A DNA stretch of 48,170 nucleotides, taken from assembly GCA_030429455.1 (NCBI GenBank), contig JAUIFC010000008.1:1-48170 (forward strand), read 5' to 3'. This stretch comes from Bacteroidia bacterium. Lineage in GTDB: Bacteria; Bacteroidota; Bacteroidia; Flavobacteriales; Flavobacteriaceae. The position numbers were made by a program, and so were the translations under genes. Shown in pieces: positions 123 to 11,737 of this stretch (position 1 is its first letter; each line of letters opens with the position of its first letter). Below the pieces are notes generated by a model. That model did no database searches, had not been told where the DNA came from, and was given only the letters and a program-made list of their open reading frames with translations.

Positions 123-2461
123 GTTGTCAATCGTTTTTTTCTATTAATTCATCAATCTTTGAATATGTCTTCTTCATAAAGTCTTCAGATTTATAATTCT
201 TGATAGCCTCTTCTAATATTGCATAAATTTCAGACTCAAAATTCTCACTTTCGAAAACATTAATTAAGTCTTTAAAGGAGTTGCTTGTCTCAAATGAAGT
301 ATAATGTTGTCTAATTTTTAAAAGAACATTTGTAATTGGTGCTTCTCGTGTTTCGAATATGCTCTCATCCTCAATATTTCCGTCTAAGTCTTCCGTTTCC
401 TTTTTTAAATTGGCCAATTTTTTAAGTATCGATAATTTGGAGACTTCTTTATCATTAAAGAAGGTAGAAATAACATCAAAAAAGGAATTCGTCTTCGTGC
501 TGTAATTAAAATTGGTTTCGGCTAATGCAACAATATTATGTGTAATGGAATCAGAAGAAAGCTTAAAATTCATCACAGATAAACGATCGATAAATTTTAA
601 AGGGGAATAGATGTACCAGTAACTTAATTGACGATACTTCTGAAGTAAGGTCTTTCTAAAGTTGTAAAATGCAGAATCCCAAGTAATTAAAAAGGGTTCA
701 TTCAAACTTCCATTTTCAGAGTTGATGTGCTGATCTTCAGAAGATAAATACAATATTGTTCTTAAATCGTTTTCTCTCGCTTTATAGGACCTTTCTTTTC
801 CCGCAAAAGCTAAGCTAATTTCGTAGTCCCGCTTAATTGATGTATAATTATCATATGTAGGATGCCAGATGATTTCTATTCCCGCTAAATCAAATAAATC
901 ACATAAGCGATCGGTTACATCATTAATAAAATTATCATCTTCGAAAACATCATGTTCCTCACCCAACAAATCCTGGATAAAGTCTTCTAAATCATCGTTA
1001 TCGCTGATTGCTCCTACTTCTTTATATCGATTATATACATTGTAAAAAACATTTTTAGAAGCTCCAAATTCCGATATATATGGTAAGTGTAGAAATCTTT
1101 GCAGTTTTAAGGCTTCCTGCAAATGACCAGCAACTTCTTGGATGTAATCTACTGATGTAACCAAACGAACATTTTCAGAGTTATTTGAAATACACTTATA
1201 AAAGCTTTTTATGGCAGACAGTGCTGAATCCTTAAACTCAAAATCTTCATTATGATAAATGCATATAAGCCTTATTAGAATTTGAGTGTCAAGATATACG
1301 GTTTGAATTTTATTGTTTAGATACTCATCTAACTTATCAGAATTATAGAGATTTGCAAAAAGAGAGGTAGTAGCTAATTTGTTCAAATATTCTTTTTCTG
1401 AGCATTTAGTAAGAATTTCTTTTGCAACTGATATTGCCTCTTTCTTTTCGACTCCCTTATCAATTAAAAAACTTTGCAAATCGTTAAAAGATCTCTTTAG
1501 CGAAGAACTAAATGAGTTGGAGGTATTTTGAATTTCATCAATATCAATTTGATAATTATCAATATAGATTTTTTGAATAGCTTCAATTAATTCTGATGGC
1601 TCACAACTTATTGAAAAACTCTCAATGAATTTATTTATTTCTTGAACTAAGTTATGTTCTTGTATTTCAACATTCTTTTGAATTTTTTCAATCTCTGATC
1701 GTTTCCCCTCTGATAGACGATATTTAGTTTTATCTAATGGAGTTACAATGAACCCTTTTGATTTGAGATAATTAAGTTCCTTCAAAAGATAATCTCCATC
1801 TATCCCATTTTGTAAATAATTATCAACGTCTTTTCTTATTGCTTCTAATTCTGAATCCGGGTTATTAAAAAGGAAGGAAAAAATATATGAATAGATTAAA
1901 TTCTTTCGAATTTCAACTGTATTCTTATTTCCAGATAAAACGTCAAAAAGTATCTTAGATTCTTTACTTAACTTACCATCTAAAGAATTTAACTTAATCC
2001 CATGTGCTTTATATGTAACTAAAGAAATGGACTTATAAGTTTCGGAATCATTTGCAAGGATAGTTGCATCAATAATTTTTAAATCAATATTATGATTTAT
2101 CTCCGCTGCAGTTTGAAGTTTGTTACGAGTATTTTTCGGAACATTCTGACTTATATAAAAATCAAGCTTATTTAAATATCCATATTCGTGGACATTTTTT
2201 TTTGCTTTTAGTAAGTCATCTTCAAGTTTATTTTCCCAATTTATTTTTTGGACTGTTATCTGTATGTTTTTTCTAATTTCACGATCCTCAATTAGTATTT
2301 CTAGATCATTTCCACCGTCATAAGGACCATCAACAATTCTGACTTGTTTAGTGGAATACTTTTCCTTATTTAACTCCTTAACGAGCAACCTAAAGTTTTC
2401 AACTGAAAGTGTATTAATTAATTTTCTTATTTCTTCATTCATATTTTAAATGATTGACAAC
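123..2461. repeat. 10-bp perfect inverted repeat bracketing the nuclease gene
   Basis: The left copy is gttgtcaatc at 123-132 and the right copy, gattgacaac, is at 2452-2461. The left copy overlaps the stop codon of the gene and the right copy starts 10 bases upstream of its ATG, so only this one gene lies between them. A mobile cassette would give this pattern, but 10 bases is short enough to be chance. Confidence 0.4.
127..2442 (-). CDS. dual-nuclease protein: Mrr-like PD-(D/E)XK plus PIN-like domain (putative defence)
   Basis: 771 aa, no signal peptide, so cytoplasmic. The N-terminus (about 1-140) resembles the Mrr/PD-(D/E)XK restriction fold: GGND at 43-46 and QITVQK at 61-66 fit the usual D...QxK spacing. 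Residues about 160-260 look like a winged helix and may bind DNA. From about 383 to 600 there is a PIN-like arrangement of acidic residues: YLDTQ near 385, a Glu in VDYIQEV, an ENDL segment, and TWD near 588. The helical C-terminus is not recognised. PIN domains are usually RNases and Mrr domains DNases, so joining both in one chain is unusual. I do not recognise a named family; a role in anti-phage or anti-plasmid defence is inferred from domain content and the accessory surroundings. The ATG at 2442 is the natural start. The gene stands alone in the visible sequence, with a promoter at 2496-2511. Confidence 0.72.
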   Translation of the reverse strand: MNEEIRKLINTLSVENFRLLVKELNKEKYSTKQVRIVDGPYDGGNDLEILIEDREIRKNIQITVQKINWENKLEDDLLKAKKNVHEYGYLNKLDFYISQNVPKNTRNKLQTAAEINHNIDLKIIDATILANDSETYKSISLVTYKAHGIKLNSLDGKLSKESKILFDVLSGNKNTVEIRKNLIYSYIFSFLFNNPDSELEAIRKDVDNYLQNGIDGDYLLKELNYLKSKGFIVTPLDKTKYRLSEGKRSEIEKIQKNVEIQEHNLVQEINKFIESFSISCEPSELIEAIQKIYIDNYQIDIDEIQNTSNSFSSSLKRSFNDLQSFLIDKGVEKKEAISVAKEILTKCSEKEYLNKLATTSLFANLYNSDKLDEYLNNKIQTVYLDTQILIRLICIYHNEDFEFKDSALSAIKSFYKCISNNSENVRLVTSVDYIQEVAGHLQEALKLQRFLHLPYISEFGASKNVFYNVYNRYKEVGAISDNDDLEDFIQDLLGEEHDVFEDDNFINDVTDRLCDLFDLAGIEIIWHPTYDNYTSIKRDYEISLAFAGKERSYKARENDLRTILYLSSEDQHINSENGSLNEPFLITWDSAFYNFRKTLLQKYRQLSYWYIYSPLKFIDRLSVMNFKLSSDSITHNIVALAETNFNYSTKTNSFFDVISTFFNDKEVSKLSILKKLANLKKETEDLDGNIEDESIFETREAPITNVLLKIRQHYTSFETSNSFKDLINVFESENFESEIYAILEEAIKNYKSEDFMKKTYSKIDELIEKND

Positions 2462-2481
2462 ATTAGCATATAACCACCAAG

Positions 2482-2534
2482 TGGCTTATATACACCAAAT
2501 ATACAAATATACAGGCACAAAATGGCTTATATAC
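2482..2534. repeat. 12-bp direct repeat bracketing the nuclease-gene promoter (operator-like)
   Basis: tggcttatatac occurs at 2482-2493 and again at 2523-2534, 41 bp apart (about four helical turns). The two copies lie on either side of the tandem -7 boxes at 2496-2511, one between promoter and ATG and one upstream. Paired repeats around a promoter suggest binding sites for a regulator; no regulator gene is visible nearby. Confidence 0.4.
2496..2511 (-). promoter_or_regulatory. tandem Bacteroidota -7 boxes for the nuclease gene
   Basis: On the minus strand TATATTTG occurs twice back to back (2511-2504 and 2503-2496), each an exact match to the Bacteroidota -7 consensus TAnnTTTG. A TTTG lies upstream on the minus strand, 14 bases from the proximal box, which is shorter than the usual -33 spacing. 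The ATG is about 54 bases downstream. Confidence 0.5.
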
Positions 2535-2580
2535 CTATTATGTATAGCAAGATTATAGCATATTAAATCCGTGCAGCTGG

Positions 2581-2758: not shown

Positions 2759-3463
2759 ATGTTACAGAAAAAATTTGAAGAGGTTGTAAGGGGATATTAC
2801 CCTGATGCCATGGATGCCAAAGACACTTCCATCCACTTTCTTGGAAAAATGCTCTTGGAGCACAACATCGATATAGCTAAAGTCTTAATGGCAACATCGG
2901 TCTGTTCCGACGATATCAATGTACCTTCCACCTCATTCTTTAATATACTATTCGGGCCTTTTATTATGGGAGGATTAGGCGGTTTGCCATTTGCTGGCGA
3001 AACAGGAATGACGGCTTTTGCGCATCACATTCCAGATGATGGAAGCGCTTTTATCTTTTATGGCCCTCATATAGGCATAACTATCAATGGCGAATTAGGA
3101 AAAATGTACAGGCCTTTGCAGGAAGAAAGTGGTAATTCTTGTGGAGCATTAATGTTGGCGCTGGATAGATTTCAAGATCCTGATTACAAACCAGTATTTA
3201 ATGAAGATGACTATCAGCAAATGAAGCTTGAACAATATTTACTGCCATACAGAGAAGAAATTTTAAGCAGTAAATACCCCGAAAAAGCAATAACAGATGC
3301 TACATATCACGTCATTAATGCTAAACTTCATCGACATATAAAGGCTTGTAAAGACGAATTTAAAGTGAATCAAATTACACTTTTAGGCGGCATAATAATT
3401 AATACCGACTATGGTTTAGACGATTATTTTGAAGTTAAAAATTTTGAACTCATCGACTTGTGA
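2759..3463 (+). CDS. LCIB/C-type (theta-class) carbonic anhydrase-like protein
   Basis: 234 aa, cytoplasmic. It carries the hallmarks of the LCIB/CGHR family, first known from the algal carbon-concentrating mechanism: CSDDIN (Cys49), the Gly-rich GPFIMGGLGGLPFAGETG block (66-83), AHHIPDDG (His89/His90), GPHIGI (102-107) and SCGA (Cys128). In that family two Cys and one His bind zinc and the enzyme hydrates CO2. The expected zinc ligands are present. Algal members, as I recall, have Arg after the DxIN motif; here it is Val54, so activity should not be assumed. The length fits a single domain without a targeting sequence. It stands alone, convergent with the RND adaptor gene (25-base gap), with its own -7 box. 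No bicarbonate transporter or other carbon-handling gene is adjacent. Confidence 0.75.
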   Translation: MLQKKFEEVVRGYYPDAMDAKDTSIHFLGKMLLEHNIDIAKVLMATSVCSDDINVPSTSFFNILFGPFIMGGLGGLPFAGETGMTAFAHHIPDDGSAFIFYGPHIGITINGELGKMYRPLQEESGNSCGALMLALDRFQDPDYKPVFNEDDYQQMKLEQYLLPYREEILSSKYPEKAITDATYHVINAKLHRHIKACKDEFKVNQITLLGGIIINTDYGLDDYFEVKNFELIDL

Positions 3464-9340: not shown

Positions 9341-10648
9341 ATGTATTATAAATCGTTAATTATAATTGTTGTGTTGTTTTGCTTTTCGCAAATTCAAGCT
9401 CAACAAACCGTTCGAATATCGAAGCAGGAAGTCGCTCAAAAGGCTTCTGAAAACAATACGAGTATAAAAATTTCAGAGCAAAGTGTTTTAGAGGCAAACG
9501 CAGACTTTAGACAAACCAATGCTGTTTTTCTTCCAAGCATTACGGCAAGTCATACAGGAATCACAACAACAAACCCTCTAATGGCCTTTGGATCTCGATT
9601 AAACCAAGAAATTTTAACCTCAAATGATTTTGACCCGAATCTTTTAAACGATCCGGAACAAATCGAAAATTTTGCTACATTGATAGAATTCCAACAACCA
9701 TTGATAAACATAGATGGCTTGTACCAACGTAAAGCTGCAAAAACCAAAATGCAAGCGATGGAATTTCAAACCCAACGGGCAAAAGAATATTTAGATTTAG
9801 AAGTAGATAAAGCCTATATGCAATTGCAACTGGCGTATAGAGGTGTAAGTGTTTTGGAAAAAGCATTGAAATCGGCGGAAGCCAATCTAAAATTAGCCAA
9901 TGATAATTTTAAACAAGGCTTGCTTCAACGAGCAGATGTTCTTGCTGTTGAAGTTCGTGTGACCGAAGTAAAAAACCAACTTCAAACGGCTAAAAGCCAA
10001 ACAGCCAATGCTTCCAATTATTTATCCTTTCTAATGAATGATAACACCAGCCTCATATATGAACCTGTAGATAGTTTGCAAGTCAATCTGGTTGAAACAG
10101 AAATGAGGCAAACTATTTCTGAAAACCGCTCGGATGTAAAAGCTATGGAATTGGCATCGCAAGCCTACAAATCCATGAGCAAGGCAGATCAGATGGCCTT
10201 TTTGCCACGATTAAATGCCTTTGGGTCTTATGCTCTTTTTGACAATGAACTATTTCAAGCAGATGCCAATGGATATACGATTGGAGCTCAATTAAGCTGG
10301 AACATTTTTGAAGGTTCAAAACGTCTGGGGAAAGCCCAAAAAAGCAAAGCGACTTACGAAAAATCGCAATTGCAATATGAGCAGTATAAATCTCAAAGTC
10401 AACTTGAACTTAATAAGGCAAATCGAATGCTTATGGACGCCAAAAACAAATTGGAATTAACGGCTTTGGCACTATCGCAATCCAAGGAATCTTTGCGCAT
10501 AAGAACAAATCGATTTAAAGAAGGCTTGGAAAAAACTTCTGATTTGCTATTGGCCGAAACACAATTTGCTCAGAAGGAATTAGAATACTTTCAAACTGTA
10601 TTCGAATACAATTATGCTCAATCTTACTTGAAATTCTTAACAAACTAA
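9341..10648 (+). CDS. TolC-family outer-membrane efflux protein
   Basis: 435 aa from the ATG at 9341; this start is chosen over an in-frame TTG seven codons earlier because it begins a clean signal peptide (YYKSLIIIVVLFCFSQIQAQ). The body shows the two-fold TolC pattern: long amphipathic helices (about 30-60, 140-215, 255-280, 345-420) alternating with beta segments, for example LPSITASHTGITTTNPL and LPRLNAFGSYALF, the latter starting the second repeat. It should form the outer-membrane channel for the adaptor and pump encoded next (18-base gap). First gene of a five-gene run ending at 15466. This system has a separate channel protein, unlike the fused pump on the other side. Confidence 0.9.
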   Translation: MYYKSLIIIVVLFCFSQIQAQQTVRISKQEVAQKASENNTSIKISEQSVLEANADFRQTNAVFLPSITASHTGITTTNPLMAFGSRLNQEILTSNDFDPNLLNDPEQIENFATLIEFQQPLINIDGLYQRKAAKTKMQAMEFQTQRAKEYLDLEVDKAYMQLQLAYRGVSVLEKALKSAEANLKLANDNFKQGLLQRADVLAVEVRVTEVKNQLQTAKSQTANASNYLSFLMNDNTSLIYEPVDSLQVNLVETEMRQTISENRSDVKAMELASQAYKSMSKADQMAFLPRLNAFGSYALFDNELFQADANGYTIGAQLSWNIFEGSKRLGKAQKSKATYEKSQLQYEQYKSQSQLELNKANRMLMDAKNKLELTALALSQSKESLRIRTNRFKEGLEKTSDLLLAETQFAQKELEYFQTVFEYNYAQSYLKFLTN

Positions 10649-10666
10649 ATCTTATAAAATAGACTT

Positions 10667-11737
10667 ATGAAATCTATATACCATATCAGCTTACTTATCC
10701 TTGCTCTTCTCATTGTAGCCTGTGGCAAAGACAAAAACATTTCTACCGAAAACAACAGCTTAGCGGTAAAAGTAACAGTACAAAAAGTAAATGAAAACAA
10801 CACAAATCCCAAGCTAAGCCTAAGTGGAAAAATTCAAGCTAAAAATTCTGCTAACCTGAGCACAAGACTTATGGGTTTTGTAAATAAGCTACATGTCAAC
10901 GCAGGAGATAGCGTTAAAAAAGGAGAGTTACTCGTATCTTTAAACAGTTCGGATTTGCAAGCAAAAGCTGCACAAGTAAATGCTGGCATTACAGAAGCTA
11001 CAGCAGGCTTTAAGAACGCAGAAAAAGATTACAAGCGTTTCCAAAATCTATTTGATGACAATTCTGCCTCGCAGAAAGAGTTGGACGACATGACAGCAAG
11101 ATACGAAATGGCAAAAGCCAGACTAGAAGCTGCCAAACAAATGAAAAATGAAATTAACGCTCAATTTGAATACACCAACATTAGAGCGCCATTTTCGGGT
11201 GTGGTTACCAACACATTTATCGACGAAGGTGATATGGCAAGTCCTGGAATGCCTTTAGTCGAAGTCGAAAACCCAAACATTTTTGAAGTAAAAACAATGG
11301 TACCAGAAACCGAAATTGTCAACATAAAATCAGATTCTGAAGTAGATGTGCTTATTTCGTCTGTGAACAAAACGTATAAAGGCAAAGTAAGTGAAGTAAG
11401 CACGTCGGCCAAAAACACAGGCGGTCAATATTTGGTAACTGTCGATTTAGAAAATCTAGATTCCAATGTTTTTTCAGGAATGTTTGCCAGCGTCCAGTTT
11501 CCAACAGATACACCTTCAAATACAGTTTTAATCCCTAAAAAAGCTCTAGTAAAAAATGGTCAATTAAGCGGTGTTTATGCAGTAAGTCAGAGCAATACTG
11601 CTGTGTTGCGTTGGCTTCGTTTAGGCAGAACTTATGGAGATCAAGTTGAAGTATTATCTGGACTTTCGACAGGTGAAACGTACATCGTTTCTGCTGATGG
11701 AAAATTATTCAATGGAGTTAAAATTCAACTTAAATAA
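10667..11737 (+). CDS. RND efflux periplasmic adaptor, lipoprotein
   Basis: 356 aa. The signal sequence ends in a lipobox at Cys19 (LIVACGK). Barrel-sandwich halves are at about 60-90 (GFVNKLHVNAGDSVKKGELLVSL begins here) and about 165-195 (IRAPFSGVVTNTFIDEGDMA), separated by a coiled-coil hairpin with Ala-rich heptads. A beta-barrel (VDVLISSVNKTYKGKVSEVS) and a membrane-proximal domain (VLIPKKALVKNGQLSGVYAV) follow. This is the MFP/HlyD-like AcrA family order. It sits between the TolC-like gene and the RND permease with gaps of 18 bases, so it is part of one tripartite pump. Confidence 0.9.
   Translation: MKSIYHISLLILALLIVACGKDKNISTENNSLAVKVTVQKVNENNTNPKLSLSGKIQAKNSANLSTRLMGFVNKLHVNAGDSVKKGELLVSLNSSDLQAKAAQVNAGITEATAGFKNAEKDYKRFQNLFDDNSASQKELDDMTARYEMAKARLEAAKQMKNEINAQFEYTNIRAPFSGVVTNTFIDEGDMASPGMPLVEVENPNIFEVKTMVPETEIVNIKSDSEVDVLISSVNKTYKGKVSEVSTSAKNTGGQYLVTVDLENLDSNVFSGMFASVQFPTDTPSNTVLIPKKALVKNGQLSGVYAVSQSNTAVLRWLRLGRTYGDQVEVLSGLSTGETYIVSADGKLFNGVKIQLK

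Follow-up and report, generated by a model that had tools for sequence, protein, structure and literature searches.

In the parts of the literature cited here, inactive restriction endonuclease (REase) domains have been proposed as immunity sensors in BREX-related systems (PMC12839542), inactive PD-(D/E)XK folds are listed in Dnd-related defence neighbourhoods (PMC10853773), and an Escherichia coli defence protein is described that combines an N-terminal Mrr-family domain with a beta-propeller (Vassallo 2022, PMC9519451). DS-3 (DefensePredictor) is described as a one-protein anti-phage system in which the catalytic residues of the PIN ribonuclease (RNase) are required for defence (PMC13092281). 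Here we analysed a stretch of 48,170 nucleotides, termed the window, which is a whole contig (C294; JAUIFC010000008.1) of the 310-contig assembly GCA_030429455.1 of a Bacteroidia bacterium from the Flavobacteriaceae. Its minus strand carries at 127-2442 an open reading frame (ORF) with an ATG start that encodes 771 amino acids (aa) plus stop, as the first-pass annotation of this DNA had noted; the plus strand has 66 stops over the same interval. The protein joins an Mrr-like PD-(D/E)XK domain with an altered lysine site, a winged helix and a PIN-like domain with invariant acids, and its gene has a solitary, mobile distribution. We read it as a one-gene anti-phage protein, carried as cargo from genome to genome, whose N-terminal half would be a nucleic-acid sensor and whose PIN domain would be an effector RNase, and we give this reading an even chance of being right.

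Homologues, domain folds and active sites

Searches recovered homologues of the window protein from genomes of its phylum, E. coli chromosomes, one Raoultella conjugative plasmid and IMG/VR contigs. The 15 that were aligned with it are full length (753-773 residues) and share 19-36% identity with it, L024 being the closest; over the N-terminal domain alone, identity is 23-47% in ten homologues. The resulting 16 rows fall into ten groups that share no more than 64% identity (close rows are L005/L015/L016 at 87-89%, L010/L017/L018 at 95-96% and L006/L012 at 83%, and L009 is the same protein as L020). Left out of the counts are L011 and the NWU_1 copy, both identical to L010, and two damaged genes: an IMG/VR homologue with a reading frame disrupted in its PIN half (L019:10001-12267), and a decayed C-terminal remnant of about 99 residues with one stop, which adjoins an ORF read as a transposase fragment (G159:C1:3654243-3654539). 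The invariant positions number 22 of 771 and include G39, D42, G44, D46, K72, D76, K79, D385, E436, D559 and D589; the probability that four named positions would all be invariant by chance is 5e-7, for rows which, forming these ten groups, are not independent. A tree groups the window protein and L024 with the Enterobacterales clade; because the program warns of long branches, no claim made here rests on it. The protein of G114, a genome of the same family as that of the window, is 83% identical to one from Flavobacterium terrisoli.

The N-terminal domain was folded alone because the re-alignment list of the full-length model was crowded by winged helices. Modelled from nine sequences, residues 1-165 reached a predicted local distance difference test score (pLDDT) of 85.1 and a predicted template modelling score (pTM) of 0.81. 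Among the entries of the PDB, Foldseek placed Avs4 (E 6.1e-3), FokI and BamHI (7.8e-3 each) on top. Structural re-alignment of Foldseek's candidates, by a tool whose stated Z background is 7-8, put AF1548 first (Z 9.8, root-mean-square deviation (rmsd) 3.4, 128 aligned residues), followed by Avs4 (Z 9.2, rmsd 3.7, 134 aligned), EcoT38I (Z 8.9, rmsd 3.9, 131 aligned), FokI (Z 8.1) and Card1 (Z 8.0); MspJI, Can2 and SduA, which we take to be the Shedu protein, stood lower. AF1548 and Avs4 are structures of the PD-(D/E)XK class. A PD-(D/E)XK fold with an alpha-beta-beta-beta-alpha-beta core is thus well supported by the model for residues 1-150 (1993..2442).

Searched against 395 genomes of the phylum, a profile of this domain matched one protein besides four family members, at E 7.6e-5. 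This protein, from genome G306, is a genuine member of Mrr_cat (E 6.6e-23) with the motif GGKDDQGVD...IQCK. Since the profile-profile alignment between the family domain and this protein is weak (probability 21.5%), kinship to Mrr rests on fold, signature and profile match together. Mrr_cat itself matched residues 35-92 of L016 (E 0.12, 12.9 bits, below the Pfam cut-off of 21), and was not listed for the window protein or the other seven homologues scanned.

Mrr enzymes share the catalytic pattern D...QxK. All 16 homologues carry the signature GxxDxGxD (residues 39-46, 2305..2328), with G39, D42, G44 and D46 invariant and D46 as the proposed metal ligand. Twelve to 15 residues after its last aspartate, at the place of QxK, all 16 have Qx[T/S] (residues 61-63, 2254..2262) and none has QxK, so that the D...(D/E/Q)xK motif of active PD-(D/E)XK nucleases is incomplete, with D46 kept in all 16 but the lysine absent from its usual place. 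The deoxyribonuclease (DNase) site is therefore altered and its canonical lysine missing. Qx[T/S] was counted by pattern, and Q61 is not among the 22 invariant positions because some rows of the alignment are shifted there; in a separate ten-sequence alignment (A3) it is invariant in 10/10. The first-pass annotation had read this half as an Mrr-like DNase fold with K66 among its key residues; K66, the proposed catalytic lysine, is a lysine in only 6 of the 16 rows, and the description as a working DNase is not supported. K72, D76 and K79 (2206..2229) are invariant in all 16 and lie on a helix (residues 69-87 in the N-domain model) after the Q61 strand, from where K72 and K79 may perhaps replace the canonical lysine.

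Behind the N-terminal domain, residues 172-245 (1708..1929) align with winged helices (best 3tdu_C, Z 11.3, rmsd 1.9, 72 aligned). A helical linker (residues 246-377, 1312..1707), modelled partly at low confidence, leads to the PIN domain (residues 378-620, 583..1311), and a helical region seen in the full model (residues 621-771, 130..582) ends the protein. In that model, residues 380-615 align with Rickettsia felis VapC2 (3zvk_B) at Z 8.8 and rmsd 3.9 over 132 of 133 residues. The four acids expected in PIN order, D385 (1288..1290), E436 (1135..1137), D559 (766..768) and D589 (676..678), are invariant in all 16 rows, with an insertion between E436 and D559. A PIN-like alpha/beta/alpha fold with four conserved acids is well supported by model and alignment, and, judged by these residues, the RNA-cutting half looks intact and the DNA-cutting half looks altered. 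PIN_3 matched residues 385-442 of L013 weakly (E 0.27, 12.5 bits against a cut-off of 27); this match and that of Mrr_cat in L016 both lie at the expected places in the protein. A further match of the PIN profile in genome G271 (E 3.9e-4, domain-only genome search) covers 25 aligned residues of a protein with no Pfam match and was judged to be chance. A search of viral proteins with the full model was led by the model of a phage restriction endonuclease (E 8.8e-3).

Much of the first-pass annotation's description of the protein stands. It had placed GGND at 43-46, QITVQK at 61-66, YLDTQ at 383-387 and ENDL at 557-560, all of which are there, and the glutamate it left unnumbered, taken as E436, completes its set of PIN acids; TWD occupies 587-589, which moves its last acid from 588 to D589. 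Its proposal of three folds in one chain agrees with the leading structural matches, and nuclease-like folds were returned for both halves.

Distribution and genomic settings

The gene is rare. Among 60 relatives it occurs in its own genome only, and it is absent from 26 other genomes of the genus that were searched. It was found in 4 of 395 genomes of the phylum and in 4 of 397 of the family (own genome included in both; one of the latter four holds a C-terminal remnant with a stop), in 4 of 5,426 E. coli genomes and on 1 of 72,556 plasmids. The window protein and an E. coli homologue as queries found nothing in 50,697 phage records, and five of eight scans of viral contigs and one of two scans of genome contigs returned no relative. 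A role in housekeeping RNA processing was rejected on account of this absence from the genus and from all relatives but its own genome, together with neighbours that are not conserved.

Several homologues lie in settings typical of defence genes, as the first-pass annotation had expected. In E. coli 1218KP the homologue sits in a P2-like prophage, flanked by a truncated replication-endonuclease gene and by the portal gene, and in IMG/VR a fuller P2-like prophage (L020) carries the same protein between the same two genes. In L016, also from IMG/VR, the P2-like homologue stands between gpA and gpQ and adjoins a KAP NTPase with a match to PDC-S49, a candidate defence family in PADLOC; the genes next to the homologue in L016 and L020 correspond to annotated ones of 1218KP. 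In the parts of two studies cited here, anti-phage genes are described as concentrated at the gpA-gpQ locus of P2-like phages, a hotspot occupied by old and tin in P2 itself (PMC9122126; PMC9519451). Hotspot genes are not all defensive: besides old-tin, three of eight other cloned systems are described as protective (Rousset et al. 2022, PMC9122126). L016 carries two KAP NTPases matching PDC-S49 in one P2-like phage (1-1767 and 12010-13713), one beside the integrase and one beside the homologue.

A second E. coli type is present as an identical copy in three genomes. Two of these were viewed; one has surrounding Rac prophage genes, and an LA2681 HEPN gene lies near the homologue in both. In L010 this HEPN gene is at 10158-11579, with a broken recombinase gene between it and the homologue. 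In L017 and L018 the homologue follows genes that were read from their ORFs as tail-fibre genes. The Raoultella copy is on a conjugative IncFII MOBF plasmid, flanked by psiA, psiB and ssb and, at its opposite end, by an annotated antirestriction gene. Among the Bacteroidota, PtuA and PtuB (Septu) begin 495 bases after the homologue in G114, and in G710 the homologue has a PemK/MazF toxin gene 1.7 kb upstream. Beyond the Septu operon of G114 is a gene for a 1418-aa protein (L006:14799-19055) for which neither Pfam (at E 0.001) nor PADLOC gave a match; its N-terminus resembles, by impression from its sequence, a nuclease domain for double-stranded DNA.

A comparison of 229 neighbour ORFs (of at least 90 aa) across the 16 loci found shared neighbours among the P2-like loci only. 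Together with the scattered sites, this points to a solitary, mobile and self-sufficient gene, in line with the one-gene layout of the first-pass annotation; no partner gene is conserved across the 16 loci. Neither outcome that the first-pass annotation had named as a refutation occurred: both halves matched nuclease-like folds, and no conserved housekeeping context was found, although five solitary chromosomal members have unrelated, mostly housekeeping-looking genes on either side.

In the window, the gene is preceded by a divergent gene (2759-3463) that matches the LCIB/C carbonic anhydrase family, and two efflux-type gene sets, named by reading ORF translations, lie beyond it. The G+C content of the gene is 0.28-0.33, against 0.32-0.39 in most of the next 10 kb. 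About 100 bases directly upstream (window 2457-2558, minus strand) recur in the same genome as a 92% identical copy (G000:C81:26996-27097), which likewise stops just before a start codon, in this case of an ORF of 172 aa that is unrelated and lies close to the end of a contig. This stretch holds the inverted repeat TATATAAGCCAC / GTGGTTATAT; the 26 other genomes of the genus gave a single 39-base partial match, in one genome, and a supposed third copy (L047) was judged to be chance, the remainder of the element being absent there. RNA folding of the region upstream of the gene gave no signal (z 0.13), and neither promoter-like sites (11 observed against 17.9 in shuffles) nor terminator-like sites (1 against 1.3) were enriched.

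Proposed mechanism and alternative explanations

From its locations, rarity and solitary mobile distribution, a role of this family in defence is likely. The division into a sensing and an acting half that the first-pass annotation had proposed is a reasonable inference, here with a direction: the N-terminal half would sense and the PIN half would act. With threonine or serine in place of the canonical lysine in all 16 homologues, a sensing or scaffolding role is more likely for the N-terminal half than that of a standard DNase. The Mrr-like fold and the winged helix would be the part that binds nucleic acid, DNA most likely, and reports infection; the PIN domain, which keeps its four metal-binding acids, would be the effector. 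Freed from autoinhibition, it would cut RNA (tRNA or mRNA), and the infected cell would be stopped. For this scheme we infer a DNA trigger, an RNA target, autoinhibition and an abortive outcome. A tentative proposal, which we consider less likely than not, goes further: a restriction-enzyme fold that has lost its cutting lysine may read infecting or damaged DNA and directly switch on the PIN RNase of the same chain, with DNA in and RNA out, and with no ATPase, second messenger, helicase or antitoxin in between.

The main rival to a sensor linked to an RNase is a protein with two active nucleases, whose catalytic lysine would have moved to K72 or K79, whose N-terminal half would cut DNA as Mrr enzymes that depend on modification or structure do, and whose PIN domain would cut RNA. 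Lysines moved to a helix are known in the PD-(D/E)XK superfamily, for example in influenza PA, and the strict conservation of K72, D76 and K79 on the helix after the Q61 strand, and of D46, is what such a site would show; the lack of QxK in all 16 homologues tells against it, as does the first-helix glutamate E27, which is arginine in 3 of 16, and we consider this explanation unlikely, if a serious one. It is rather more improbable that the gene serves phages or plasmids as cargo for some other purpose, such as superinfection exclusion by a different route, anti-defence in a plasmid leading region or addiction by a toxin. The prophage and plasmid homologues would fit, above all the plasmid copy between the psiA/psiB/ssb genes and the annotated antirestriction gene, but the chromosomal Bacteroidota members have neighbours unlike phage genes, and no antitoxin or other partner gene is conserved among the neighbour ORFs compared. 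Least probable, and in our view very much so, is a PIN half acting on DNA in a structure-specific manner, like FEN-type members of its superfamily, in a DNA-only restriction enzyme: both other recognised parts are of DNA-binding types, and Exo1 is among the low-ranking Foldseek matches to the full model (E about 0.6), yet the re-alignment lays a VapC RNase across the whole PIN domain.

Several results weigh against our preferred reading of a one-gene sensor and effector. The full-length model, built from eight sequences, is mediocre (pLDDT 66.7, pTM 0.49), its VapC2 match barely clears the background of the re-alignment tool, and Foldseek gave no match at E 0.001 or better for either the full or the N-domain model. 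Sequence profiles of the N-terminal and PIN domains found no nuclease among PDB sequences, their best matches being katanin (E 0.13) and a fatty-acid-binding protein (E 0.65), respectively. The weak profile alignment puts QxK of the Mrr protein two residues away from Qx[T/S]; a two-residue gap is needed to set one over the other, and ungapped there is still no conserved lysine, as positions 65 and 66 vary. A purely binding domain would have no need of the invariant K72, D76 and K79. Five of the eight Bacteroidota members (L007, L008, L012, L013 and L014) are solitary among unrelated, mostly housekeeping-looking genes. In the window itself, the visible neighbours, the LCIB-type carbonic anhydrase and efflux-type genes, include no defence gene, and the other flank is unseen because only 126 bp of contig follow the stop codon.

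If defensive, the family would be a compact system in which one gene couples a DNA-nuclease fold with an RNase effector, and, if our reading of its N-terminal half is true, a simple case of how a degenerate restriction-enzyme fold serves as a sensor. Since its Enterobacterales members reside in laboratory-tractable P2-like and Rac prophages, the claim is directly testable.

Comparison with known systems

The layout of an Mrr-like domain, a winged helix and a PIN domain, for which the first-pass annotation knew of no described system, was not found described in searches of open-licence literature either, and the literature on inactive restriction endonucleases with NACHT yielded loosely related papers only. 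With no credible match in five sequence libraries (Pfam, NCBIfam, PADLOC, PHROGs and PDB sequences), this is an unmodelled family for defence annotation. PADLOC 2.0.0 returned no family for the window protein and L024, and weak partial matches only for eight other homologues, the best being Cmr5 (E 0.00098, 42 residues of L006).

Among the known nucleases, Mrr-type restriction endonucleases (Mrr_cat, PF04471) share the fold and the GxxDxGxD signature; the present family differs in having Qx[T/S] for QxK, a winged helix and a PIN domain as partners, and a score below the Pfam cut-off. Its N-terminal domain aligns with residues 2-175 of the STAND defence protein Avs4 (PDB 8dgf; 134 aligned, Z 9.2), whose N-terminus we take to be a nuclease. 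In contrast to Avs4, neither the window protein (E up to 10) nor eight homologues (E up to 1) match any NTPase family, and assignment to STAND/Avs was rejected on that ground. VapC-type PIN RNases (3zvk) correspond in fold over 132 of 133 residues, while the family studied here combines its four invariant acids with a large insertion, fusion to Mrr-like and winged-helix domains and no conserved antitoxin gene; a VapBC-type toxin was rejected because no antitoxin-like neighbour is shared outside the P2-like phages (ORFs of at least 90 aa compared).

Described systems that combine some of these features are arranged differently, as far as the cited parts of their sources go. The PIN domain of DS-3, compared by description only, is described as split between the N and C terminus, whereas here it lies within residues 378-620 behind an Mrr-like N terminus (PMC13092281). 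The E. coli Mrr protein of Vassallo 2022 has a beta-propeller where this family has a winged helix and a PIN domain (PMC9519451). The inactive REase domains of BREX- and Dnd-related systems are described as joined to helicases or AAA+ ATPases, and not to a PIN RNase (PMC12839542, PMC10853773). By its layout, the family is probably a so far undescribed variant of single-gene nuclease-effector defence.

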